Virus record (IMG/VR): IMGVR_UViG_3300046003_007336
Span: 124,001 to 188,000 of that record
DNA from: a virus
Strand: one strand, 5' to 3'
Length of the DNA stretch: 64,000 nt
Each line of letters opens with the position of its first letter. The first letter of the stretch is position 1. The notes under the pieces were generated by a model. That model was not told where the DNA came from and did not search any database. It saw nothing but the letters and a program-made list of their open reading frames with translations. This document shows, piece by piece, positions 12,044 through 33,984 of this stretch. A program made the position numbers and the translations under genes.

Positions 12044-12330
12044 CCCGCAAAGGATGATTCGGAGGCCTAGATAGGAGGCCTTGAAGTTTTTCGCTTCGGC
12101 GCACCCGTCCGAAGACAGATGTAATGCTTGGTGTCTGAGACGGTCTTCTAACCGCTAGCTGAGTATGGTTCAGCCATTTCCTCCACCACTGAACGCAGGG
12201 GACTCGGACTACATCCAGATCGTCTTGCGACGATCTCGAAGGTTCAATGTGCCGTTCCTCTTGCGAGGGGGCTTGGCTTCCCTTCCTTGAGCCCGAAGCT
12301 CTGGGTTGGGGTGGGTGGCTGCGCGGCCAC
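12044..12330 (-). pseudogene. Interrupted coding sequence upstream of the zinc-ribbon gene
   Basis: Reading the minus strand from GTG 12330 (11 bases after an AAAGGAG site) gives about 28 codons, then a TGA at 12246-12244. The same frame continues with EIVARRSGCSPSPLRSVVEE, which looks like a helix-turn-helix, to a TAG at 12150-12148. A shift of -1 at that point gives a frame (RLEDRLRHQALHLSSDG) that runs without stops into the zinc-ribbon protein. One stop and one frameshift in a coding-like stretch suggest a decayed gene, an assembly error or recoding. Hairpins are also present: a GCAA-loop stem near 12222-12240 and a GGAGGCCT direct repeat at 12061-12081. I found no convincing tRNA in this 355-base region. 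Confidence 0.4.
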
Positions 12331-29862: not shown

Positions 29863-30232
29863 ACCAGCACCAGCGGGGCTCAATGGCGAGGAAGGCGTAG
29901 GGGTCATTGGCGACGTGCCCCCACGCCTCGTTGTAGGCCCGGAAGCCCTTCTCCTCGGTGATGTCGGAATCGTTGAAATCGTTTTCGGGGTACTCGATAT
30001 CCTGGAGCCAGGACAGGATGGAATCTGCCGCAGTCTCTGGGGTATCGAGTGGATAGGGGAAGGGCTCGGCGGTCTTGCTGTCGGTCCAGAACAAGATCAG
30101 CCGTGCAGGCTTGCCTTCGCGCTCCTCGACACGAAAATGCGTTGCGCGGCGGTGCTGGCCGAGCATAATCTGCATCACCGAGACGAGGTCTCGGCGACTA
30201 CGCGTCCCAATATCGATGGAGAAGTTGTCCAT
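29852..30232 (-). CDS. Unknown phage protein, 126 aa
   Basis: The start is ATG 30232, overlapping the stop of the gene at 30232 (ATGA). The protein contains a beta-hairpin-like centre (ATHFRVEEREGKPARLILFW), a helical unit (ETAADSILSWLQDIEYPE), and an aromatic C-terminus (AIEPRWCWYGK). Nothing is recognised. It belongs to the same minus-strand operon as its neighbours. Confidence 0.6.
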   Translation of the reverse strand: MDNFSIDIGTRSRRDLVSVMQIMLGQHRRATHFRVEEREGKPARLILFWTDSKTAEPFPYPLDTPETAADSILSWLQDIEYPENDFNDSDITEEKGFRAYNEAWGHVANDPYAFLAIEPRWCWYGK

Positions 30233-30633
30233 CAGCGAACCCGCTTGGACGGCTGGCCGGGCAGAATCATGGCGCCGCCACTCGCGCGACAATCGTCGGC
30301 GAAGCTCAGACGGGCGTCACCGTCGATTTCCTCGACGACCGGGAAGGGACCCACGTTGGGTTCCTTGGCGGCCTTCTTGGTCGTCTCGTCGATCTGACGC
30401 ACGTAGTCGCCCACGGACTGCCCCTGAACGGTGCAGAACCATTGGACGGGCGGCTGGCCTTTCTGGGGCGGGGTGTTGTGGTTGTCGAACCAGTAGTCGA
30501 GGATGCGTTCGGCGTCCTCGCGGTCCTGCCAGCCGGTCGCGCGTTCGATCTTCACCCAACCCGCGCCGTCGTAGGCGTCCTTGGGACGATATCCATCATA
30601 GTAGAAGGCGCGGCCGAGGCGAATGACGAACAT
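30232..30633 (-). CDS. Unknown phage protein, 133 aa
   Basis: Begins MFVIRLGRAFYYDGYRPKDA and contains AGWVKIERATGWQDREDAER, an aromatic strand followed by an acidic turn and a helix. The C-terminal 50 residues look partly disordered and basic. It starts at ATG 30633, overlapping the stop of the GlyRS-like gene, and ends by overlapping the next start. Unknown function. Confidence 0.6.
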   Translation of the reverse strand: MFVIRLGRAFYYDGYRPKDAYDGAGWVKIERATGWQDREDAERILDYWFDNHNTPPQKGQPPVQWFCTVQGQSVGDYVRQIDETTKKAAKEPNVGPFPVVEEIDGDARLSFADDCRASGGAMILPGQPSKRVR

Positions 30634-31370
30634 CAGAGCACACCCTGGCTGACCACGACCATGCGGTCGATGCCGAAGGCGACCTCGAAGACCCGGTTGG
30701 GTTTCTGGCCGGGGATGTCAGGGAAGTCGGTGCGGATGGAGGTCGAGGCGACTTCCTTCCATTCCGGGGTGCCGGTCGTGGGCGACGTCCACAGGACTTC
30801 GATGTCGATGGTCTCCGTGGAATACGAGGGCAGGCGGTCGCTCGGAACCAGCCGGGTTTCCAGACCGGTCAGCTTGGCGACCACGGGCACGAGCGCATCA
30901 CGAACGGTCTGCGGGATGGGCGCCATGGTGTTCTCGCCGTAGATGCACTGGAACTCCAACTGGTAGAAGGAATTGAAGCGCAGCTTGGCCGCCGTCGCGC
31001 CGTCCGAGCGTTCCTGCCGGAAGCTCTGGCCCATGGTGTAGACGCAGAAAGGCGGCTTGGCGTTGGTGGACCGGAAGAGTTCGACCGCCATCAGGTAGGA
31101 GCCCATCGTGGTCTCAGCCCGCAGGGCGTAATCCTGGCCTGCGATCTGGTCACGGAGCACGAAGACGTCGTCGTCGGCGTAGGCTGCGGACATGAGGCTG
31201 CGCGGCATGAGGACCGGAGTGTCGGTCTCCTCGAAACGCCACATCTGGTTCATGTCCAGCAGGGTCTTCTGCACGCAGCCGACCAGCGAGGACTTGATGA
31301 TTTCGCGGAGGCGAATCTCGTGGTCACGCCATGAGCGAAGCGCGGTCGTATCGTAGGGGGCGGATGACAT
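30633..31370 (-). CDS. Class II aminoacyl-tRNA-synthetase-like protein, closest to the glycyl-tRNA synthetase core
   Basis: A 245-residue protein that carries the three class II motifs. Motif 1 ends in FEETDTPVLMP (about residues 46-56). LRAETTMGSYL corresponds to the L-R-P-E-T-A-Q-G signature of glycyl-tRNA synthetase. Motif 2 is MGQSFRQERSDG (about residues 113-124) with the conserved Arg. Motif 3 is VFEVAFGIDRMVVV with the ATP-binding Arg. There is no anticodon-binding domain, and the protein is about half the size of a bacterial GlyRS. Adenylate-forming chemistry therefore looks possible, but charging of tRNA is uncertain; it might aminoacylate another acceptor. It has its own sigma70-like promoter and heads a four-gene minus-strand transcript. 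Confidence 0.75.
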   Translation of the reverse strand: MSSAPYDTTALRSWRDHEIRLREIIKSSLVGCVQKTLLDMNQMWRFEETDTPVLMPRSLMSAAYADDDVFVLRDQIAGQDYALRAETTMGSYLMAVELFRSTNAKPPFCVYTMGQSFRQERSDGATAAKLRFNSFYQLEFQCIYGENTMAPIPQTVRDALVPVVAKLTGLETRLVPSDRLPSYSTETIDIEVLWTSPTTGTPEWKEVASTSIRTDFPDIPGQKPNRVFEVAFGIDRMVVVSQGVL

Positions 31371-32593: not shown

Positions 32594-32668
32594 ACTTACG
32601 GTAGCGGACGCAAGGGTCTCAAGGAAGATCAGGGCCTCTTCCCGCATGGCTTCGTGGTTGGTCGTCAC
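32591..32668 (-). CDS. Candidate 25-residue protein
   Basis: A GTG at 32668 overlaps the stop of the CoaB/aldolase gene (GTGA). The frame runs for 25 codons, filling the entire gap to the late box, where its TAA is part of TAAATA. The product (MTTNHEAMREEALIFLETLA, then SATVS) is one amphipathic acidic helix. The evidence is only the coupling and the exact fit to the gap. It could be a small regulator or chance. Confidence 0.4.
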   Translation of the reverse strand: MTTNHEAMREEALIFLETLASATVS

Positions 32669-33984
32669 GCGACCAGACCACCCGTCTTGGCCGACAGATC
32701 GAAGTGCGTTTCGATGAAGGCGATCACTTCCAGCGCGGGCGTCGAGCGCGAGAACACGATGTTGGGGCCGTGCTCATCCAGCATGACGGCCTTGATGCCC
32801 GGTGCGACCTTCTGGAGGCCCCGTGAGGTGGCTTGGCCGCATTGGTGGCTGCCGCACTCGTTAGGCCTCTGATCGACGTGTGAGAGGACTTCTGACGCAC
32901 CATCACGGGGTGGGCAGTGGAAATGCACGATGCACTCGGCCTCGGGGTGCTCGCGGAAGATCACCCGCTGAGACTGGCCGCCGACGCTGGGCTTGCCGCC
33001 GTGGGCGATCACTTTCTCGTCCCCGTATTCGACCAGGATGAGGCCTTCCTCGGGAAGCTTGTTGAAGTCGCGCTTGCGGCGCGATGTCAGGATGGAGCCG
33101 TCGTCGATCTTGGCGGCGAAGTGGCCCACCGTCGCGCCCCGGAAGGGCTTATAGGCGCCACGCACGATGCAGTGATTGACGACCTCGCGGAGGTTCTCGG
33201 GCACACGGGGGTCACCCCACGCCACAGGCGGACCATCGACGACGGTCGAGCGCGTGAAAGTGTTGGTCGAGCGCGAGAGCAGCATTTCGACCAAGCCGTC
33301 GAGGCACTCGTTTCGGTCATGCGTCTGGAAGTGACGCGATTCCTCGGGTGTCACGACCATGTTGAGGCGCGTCACCGTGTCGTTGGCCAGCACCAGATTG
33401 GCGGAGTTGGCCTTGAGGAGATGGAGCCCGGCCGCATACTGTTCGTCCGGCGTCGCCCCCGTCGTGGTCTTGAAGGCGACGAGGAAGATGTCCTTCCGCT
33501 CCTTGCGGATGCGCGAGATCAGCTTGTCGGCGGGGTCGAGGGCCATCCATCGACTGCCTTCACTGGTTTTCAGCCTCTCCTCATGGGAGCCAGAATTCGT
33601 CCTATCCCAAAGGTAGGTTGACGGCGGCTGTGCCGTCTTCATCACCACACCGTCGTAGTCGCACAGGGCGGCGTTCATGATAATGACGCGGGTCTCGGGG
33701 TCAGCGATCAGCCCATCCACGAGATCACTGACATCCTGGTTGGTGACCAGACTGCTCGTGTGATCGGCCATCTTGGTCAGATGTAGGGTGACCTCGCGCT
33801 CGGCCTGCTCTTCAAGCACGGTCGCGTAGGTGTTCGAAATCGCGCGACCTTCGCGCGCCGCTTCCACCATGGTGTTGATGATGACGCGTTCGAGATAACG
33901 GGCCGTTCCGCCGAATGCCGGAGCCGCCAGAGCGAGGTGGTTGCGAACGTGGGAGAAAGTCCCACCGCCGATGACGTGTATCAT
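32665..33984 (-). CDS. Fusion of a CoaB-like (phosphopantothenoylcysteine synthetase) domain and a class II aldolase domain
   Basis: A 439-residue protein. Residues 1-215 resemble the CoaB/DFP fold: VIGGGTFSHVRNHLALAAPA at the N-terminus, IIMNAALCDYDG near residue 100, DKLISRIRKERKDIFLVAFK (about 154-173), and LLKANSANLVLANDTVTRLN. Residues 235-439 resemble class II aldolase/adducin: SRRKRDFNKLPEEGLILVE, the zinc-binding ECIVHFHCPP (His-x-His, about 353), and MLDEHGPNIVF with a third His. CoaB makes phosphopantothenoylcysteine for coenzyme A; class II aldolases handle sugar phosphates. I do not know of this combination in characterised phages, and its substrate is unknown. Coupled to neighbours at both ends. 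Confidence 0.7.
   Translation of the reverse strand: MIHVIGGGTFSHVRNHLALAAPAFGGTARYLERVIINTMVEAAREGRAISNTYATVLEEQAEREVTLHLTKMADHTSSLVTNQDVSDLVDGLIADPETRVIIMNAALCDYDGVVMKTAQPPSTYLWDRTNSGSHEERLKTSEGSRWMALDPADKLISRIRKERKDIFLVAFKTTTGATPDEQYAAGLHLLKANSANLVLANDTVTRLNMVVTPEESRHFQTHDRNECLDGLVEMLLSRSTNTFTRSTVVDGPPVAWGDPRVPENLREVVNHCIVRGAYKPFRGATVGHFAAKIDDGSILTSRRKRDFNKLPEEGLILVEYGDEKVIAHGGKPSVGGQSQRVIFREHPEAECIVHFHCPPRDGASEVLSHVDQRPNECGSHQCGQATSRGLQKVAPGIKAVMLDEHGPNIVFSRSTPALEVIAFIETHFDLSAKTGGLVA

Follow-up and report, generated by a model that had tools for sequence, protein, structure and literature searches.

A glycyl-tRNA synthetase-like catalytic core lacking an anticodon-binding domain in jumbo phages

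Gene locus

The DNA analysed here, hereafter the window, is a stretch of 64,000 nucleotides that corresponds to positions 124001-188000 of a 198,512-base virus contig (G000) from a large phage. The gene of interest (Table 1) is an intact open reading frame (ORF), and its ATG is preceded by a GA-rich stretch resembling a ribosome-binding site. The ORF overlapping its stop codon gave no match in Pfam or PHROGs, and the sole relative of that ORF sits on a near-identical contig; it is an orphan and not a conserved partner. The possibility that this coupled ORF supplies a split anticodon domain was rejected, since it possesses no such domain and no relative beyond the near-identical contig. Upstream, at a distance of 1.3 kb, lies the gene for a 439-residue protein (32665-33984, minus strand; phrog_35624) with a DFP/CoaB-like region, which scored below the cut-off, and a class II aldolase domain; this neighbor is not conserved among relatives. 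A search of phage records revealed no useful nucleotide-level relatives of the window, and the absence of a PADLOC match led us to reject a known defence system.

Table 1. Features of the glycyl-tRNA synthetase (GlyRS)-like gene, its product and associated genes. Coordinates are those of the window except in the last row.
Feature	Position	Strand	Remarks
GlyRS-like catalytic-core gene	30633..31370	(-)	245 aa, ATG to TGA; TGA overlaps the next ATG
Downstream ORF	30232..30633	(-)	133 aa; start overlaps the stop of the GlyRS-like gene (TGATG)
Long helix and motif 1-type strand	31203..31325	(-)	residues 16-56; N41, P52, L54 and P56 conserved; DSSP of the AlphaFold2 model
GlyRS-like signature LRAETTMG	31101..31124	(-)	residues 83-90; E86 invariant (66/66)
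Motif 2, SFRQE-loop-RFNSFYQLEFQC	30945..31025	(-)	residues 116-142; R118, E120, F135 and E139 invariant
Strand EVASTSIRTD	30726..30755	(-)	residues 206-215; S209 (65/66) and S211 (66/66) at the GlyRS Gly and Ala positions
Motif 3, VFEVAFGIDRMVVV	30651..30692	(-)	residues 227-240; E229, G233 and R236 invariant; A231 where GlyRS has Ser
Lone CUA (amber) tRNA, G73	L023:9582-9657 (Phosso); also in L052-L054, L056, L058-L060, L065		rhizobial-type jumbo phages

Sequence motifs and active site

The initial annotation had placed all three class II motifs and the GlyRS signature within 245 residues, and each of them was recovered: a motif 1 region, LRAETTMG, motif 2 (SFRQE...RFNSFYQLEFQ) and motif 3 (FEVAFGIDR). 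The motif 1 region is the dimer region of class II enzymes. Invariance counts are based upon a sequence alignment of 66 dereplicated family members, among which E86, R118, E120, E139, R213, E229 and R236 are conserved in 66/66. Alignment with Thermus thermophilus GlyRS pairs these residues with E188, R220, E222, E239, R311, E359 and R366, respectively; the T. thermophilus numbering up to 328 was read off the alignment produced by the tool, whereas that from 359 to 366, and the glycine-binding role of the aligned residues, follow what is generally known of GlyRS structures. The retention of R118 and R236 in all 66 members means that the motif 2 and motif 3 arginines have not been lost. With its catalytic residues invariant, the protein most likely adenylates something. 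In the second clade of the family, the motif 2 loop has the length found in GlyRS and aligns without gaps.

The amino acid is less easily read from the alignment. Throughout the family, Gly307 and Ala309 of GlyRS are replaced by Ser209 and Ser211, and the EPS/EPA motif of GlyRS is absent, EP(S/A) having become E(V/I)A through the change of Pro to Val or Ile. Ser361 of GlyRS is replaced by alanine (A231) in 65 of the 66 members; since alanine also occupies this position in an actinobacterial-type GlyRS (L197), the substitution is no argument against glycine. The substrate is probably a small amino acid, with glycine the first candidate, the pocket changes at S209 and S211 leaving the choice uncertain.

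The protein ends at residue 245, nine residues beyond R236, and so carries no anticodon-binding domain. The corresponding Pfam family (PF03129, HGTP_anticodon) was found neither elsewhere in G000 nor in five of six related phage genomes; the single match, in Sinorhizobium phage Phosso, lies far from the gene within a 665-aa open frame. The proposal of a core without an anticodon-binding domain is thus borne out. Glycine identity in GlyRS normally requires C35 and C36 of the anticodon (PMC9976931).

Relationship to class II synthetases

Searches with the window protein against Pfam revealed a PheS-type core (E = 9.9e-5) and a class II core (E = 5.5e-4), and those against NCBIfam placed GlyRS first (PRK04173, E = 3.4e-10), followed by HisRS (7.5e-8) and SerRS (1.5e-3). 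The PDB entry for GlyRS 8t5n was matched at E = 1.9e-5 from the single sequence and at 5.6e-13 from the family profile. Neither the window protein nor 16 relatives matched any PHROG. In pairwise comparison with class II proteins, a GlyRS fragment scored 66 bits, other synthetases 7-17 bits and E. coli EpmA the lowest, 3.8 bits. With hhalign the family gave a probability of 98.8 and a score of 105 against GlyRS, whereas the E. coli proteins HisRS, SerRS, ProRS, ThrRS, PheS and EpmA reached 30-46; the GlyRS side of this uneven comparison was a fragment of only 137 residues, a handicap that falls on GlyRS. Readings as a HisRS/HisZ-like or SerRS-like protein are weaker in the profile comparison.

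An AlphaFold2 model based upon a 17-sequence alignment reached a pLDDT of 90.5 and a pTM of 0.89. The comparison of this model with known folds by Foldseek and VIA-align returned a class II fold with GlyRS as the top structural neighbors (Z = 22.4); the first 18 VIA rows are all GlyRS, and ProRS, glycine:[carrier protein] ligase, HisRS and ThrRS follow 2-3 Z units behind. The fold by itself indicates a class II core leaning to GlyRS, and it is the sequence profile that decides for GlyRS. Judged by profile, sequence and predicted fold, the closest kin of the window protein is the alpha2-type GlyRS, by a wide margin in the hhalign comparison. A GlyRS-type catalytic core in a phage, as originally suggested, is therefore upheld by profile, sequence, predicted fold and the phage contig itself, and is no chance resemblance. 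Four further small phage proteins in BFVD (K7QJG2, A0A141HRQ2, A0A292GIB7 and A0A2I7SAH4; 185-217 aa) have a class II synthetase-like fold at 11-16% identity.

Distribution and bacterial copies

Family members were found by tblastn in 21 phage records, the carriers including Caulobacter phages CcrBL9, CcrSC, BL47, C1, J4 and RB23, five Brevundimonas giants, Sinorhizobium phage Phosso and Xanthomonas phage XbC2. Existing labels on these proteins include hypothetical protein, aminoacyl-tRNA synthetase and serine-tRNA synthetase. Two scans of IMG/VR yielded 19 and 62 loci. This widespread family is apparently uncatalogued, being absent from PHROGs and represented by no dedicated model in Pfam or NCBIfam; no earlier description or biochemistry was found in the literature searched, most subscription journals lying outside its coverage.

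A genome scan revealed the gene on 17 bacterial contigs, mostly from Devosia and Phenylobacterium, where 4/19 and 9/101 genomes, respectively, are carriers; some of these contigs extend over hundreds of kilobases. In the phylogenetic tree, which is dominated by phages and has GlyRS at its far side, 16 of the 17 bacterial copies fall, together with two viral rows, in one well-supported set nested inside the phage sequences. This nesting makes transfer from phage to bacterium likely, and further exchange possible. Pairs of bacterial chromosomal copies show a dN/dS of 0.05-0.17, that is, purifying selection, so the gene is of use outside the phage as well. Alpha2-type GlyRS was detected in none of 80 sampled Pseudomonadota genomes; in the control search, 7 of 14 well-known genomes proved to have it. 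A copy of the host GlyRS is thus an unlikely origin for the phage enzyme, which would be independent of its hosts.

tRNA genes and gene neighborhood

No tRNA gene was found in the window, an Rfam scan included. The statement in the initial annotation to that effect holds for the window and does not extend to the phage: the rest of the contig carries 14 (Infernal) to 18 (ARAGORN) tRNA genes, among which the search for tRNA-Gly revealed two, with anticodons tcc and gcc. Among 55 dereplicated viral loci, tRNA density is 0.69/kb in the 0.5 kb nearest the gene vs 0.11/kb at 4-8 kb, about a sixfold difference, and 24 of these loci have a tRNA gene within 1 kb. Such proximity is weak evidence, since the loci are non-independent and jumbo phages in general have their translation genes clustered. 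The window, the Caulobacter and Brevundimonas phages and the bacterial copies have no adjoining tRNA genes. Elsewhere the adjoining tRNA varies by clade (Gly, Ala, Glu, Arg, Pro, Ser, Asn, Met or amber), from which we conclude that the family as a whole has no fixed cognate tRNA.

Inventories gave 18 tRNA genes in G000, 24 in Bambus, 28 in CcrBL9 and 7 in G001, and 60 in Phosso and 53 in G004 in the parts read, the contigs of G000, G001 and G004 being possibly incomplete. Every inventoried phage except G001 has tRNA-Gly, and only G001, Phosso and G004 have CUA tRNAs. A fixed tRNA-Gly partner was rejected because G001 possesses the enzyme and seven tRNAs, none of them tRNA-Gly, and because the neighboring tRNAs vary.

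No operon partner is conserved across the family. In the Phosso clade the gene neighbors include CysRS, PTH2, an RNA ligase and an R2K ATP-grasp ligase; the last (L023:6271-7128 in Phosso) adjoins the RNA ligase and CysRS and is a candidate aminoacyl-transferring enzyme. A 463 kb phage contig carries a bacterial class A RNase P RNA (L017:11283-11603; 208 bits) within the tRNA array adjoining the family gene. At another locus, two matches to tRNA (L010:11971-12113 and 12123-12260) measure 143 and 138 bases, roughly double the usual length, and may contain insertions; a skipping-rope RNA (L010:9193-9310) lies near them.

Proposed function and alternatives

The reading that we prefer, with a probability of about 0.5, is that this protein is an active enzyme which adenylates glycine (or alanine or serine) and charges the acceptor ends of tRNAs independently of the anticodon. 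A presumably dimeric class II adenylating enzyme, sharing its ancestry with the alpha2-type GlyRS, would use ATP to activate a small amino acid (most likely glycine, possibly alanine or serine) and load it onto the CCA end of tRNAs or of tRNA-like acceptors, with no more than its catalytic core and the loop of motif 2. Its specificity would lie in the acceptor stem and not in the anticodon. In jumbo phages this would provide a charging activity beside their own tRNA genes, independent of the unrelated alpha2beta2 GlyRS of the host. Attachment of a small amino acid to RNA during infection is most likely, a protein acceptor being less so. An RNA acceptor is favored by the tRNA neighborhood, by CysRS and PTH2 among the neighboring genes and, in one clade, by a motif 2 loop as long as that of GlyRS, whereas the absent anticodon domain, the C35/C36 requirement of GlyRS and the lone bacterial copies favor a different or broader one.

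That the enzyme modifies a protein instead of RNA is unlikely. The missing anticodon domain would suit such a role, as would the bacterial chromosomal copies, which are under purifying selection without tRNA neighbors, and class II proteins devoid of tRNA-binding domains, such as PoxA, do modify proteins according to a review (PMC9437257). However, phage tRNA genes cluster around the gene, and no family-wide conserved neighbor fit to be the protein target was found. Nor is EpmA a particular relative: kinship with EpmA/PoxA was rejected on sequence (3.8 bits and a 15-column hhalign match), so that the analogy drawn in the initial annotation stands for architecture and falls for sequence. Of that reading as a whole, phage origin, GlyRS core and missing domain remain, and the surroundings in many relatives point to tRNA genes and not to a protein target.

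A more far-reaching scenario, in which an anticodon-blind, GlyRS-related phage family charges tRNAs by the acceptor stem alone, includes an amber tRNA pair and was later captured by bacteria, seems distinctly unlikely. The component of it that concerns the amber codon, namely an orthogonal pair in the Phosso clade, made up of the enzyme and the CUA tRNA upstream of its gene, that would decode UAG in the manner of PylRS/tRNA-Pyl, is on its own quite improbable. In all nine loci of this clade, a CUA-anticodon tRNA lies 65-1884 bp upstream of the enzyme gene, and it has been kept with a constant G73 although the acceptor stems have diverged. It stands apart from the main tRNA arrays in Phosso, where it is annotated as an undetermined tRNA, and in G004, and an enzyme making no contact with the anticodon would fit such a tRNA. 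The 266 kb phage contig G001 has two CUA tRNAs (L154:198 and 277) among only seven tRNA genes. Against the pair, Bambus and CcrBL9 carry the enzyme and no CUA tRNA, and synteny within one clade may reflect descent alone. UAG recoding was rejected for the nine loci, in which no ORF is homologous on both sides of an in-frame TAG; TAG is rarely used there, yet it remains a stop.

It is very improbable that the protein is an amino acid:[carrier protein] ligase similar to Bradyrhizobium Bll0957, which loads glycine onto the phosphopantetheine arm of a carrier protein. Bll0957 is an alphaproteobacterial core-only class II enzyme with glycine as its substrate and a Z of 19.8 to our model, and a CoaB-like region is encoded 1.3 kb from the gene in the window. 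GlyRS nevertheless ranks higher in structure (Z = 22.4, a difference of only 2.6), the CoaB-like neighbor is not shared by relatives, and the PP-binding domain (PF00550) was found in one of seven phage genomes (XbC2), with none in G000, although a carrier protein of the host might serve instead. Known members are zinc-dependent according to the review (PMC9437257); in the sequence alignment of the 66 family members no cysteine is invariant, the only frequent ones being C109 (47/66) and C142 (51/66).

Host translation is often rewired by phages, and human GlyRS in complex with Ap4A (2zt5) is among the structural neighbors, yet interference with host glycylation, or the production of Ap4A-like signaling nucleotides without charging, is highly improbable, the retention of the gene by bacteria under purifying selection disfavoring a toxic inhibitor.

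Comparison with known systems

Giant phages are known to encode tRNAs and full-length synthetases. Huge phages with synthetases are on record (PMC7162821), and jumbo phages are reported not to keep a conserved synthetase complement (PMC7824862). The review of duplicated synthetases names glycine aa:CP ligases as paralogues of GlyRS and, in the passages retrieved, mentions no phage core-only GlyRS (PMC9437257).

The alpha2-type GlyRS (PRK04173; 8t5n, 1b76) is the best match in sequence, profile and fold, and shares LR-x-ET, the FR-x-E of motif 2, the E139 site and the GxDR of motif 3. The phage protein differs in its 245 residues vs about 450-690, in having neither the insertions nor the C-terminal anticodon-binding domain, and in the family's serines (S209/S211) for Gly/Ala and E(V/I)A for EP(S/A). 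Bll0957 (3mf2, 4h2s) has the same core-only class II architecture; it is longer, at about 300 residues, and scores below GlyRS in fold, no Cys is invariant in the alignment of the phage family, and no carrier protein was found in six of seven phage genomes. EpmA/PoxA, a LysRS-like EF-P lysyltransferase, is likewise synthetase-like and free of an anticodon domain, yet it is the weakest sequence match compared. PylRS without its N-terminal domain (Methanomethylophilus alvus, 6jp2) is of similar size (about 275 aa; TMt 0.51, profile E = 5e-4). PylRS is functional as a class II enzyme and leaves the anticodon unread; it differs in its large amino-acid pocket and in having its own tRNA-Pyl, the phage family as a whole having no fixed tRNA partner. 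The phAPEC8 protein K7QJG2 (190 aa) and A0A141HRQ2 (217 aa) are also phage-coded, single-domain Foldseek matches, but with their low identity they are apparently separate families.

Set beside these systems, the core-only synthetases described here form a family that is conserved in several jumbo-phage groups and was probably passed on to bacterial chromosomes. Should it charge RNA, it would offer a natural test of how far a class II core can dispense with an anticodon domain, and would be a source of small enzymes orthogonal to the host; should it modify protein, it would represent a new means by which phages control their hosts.
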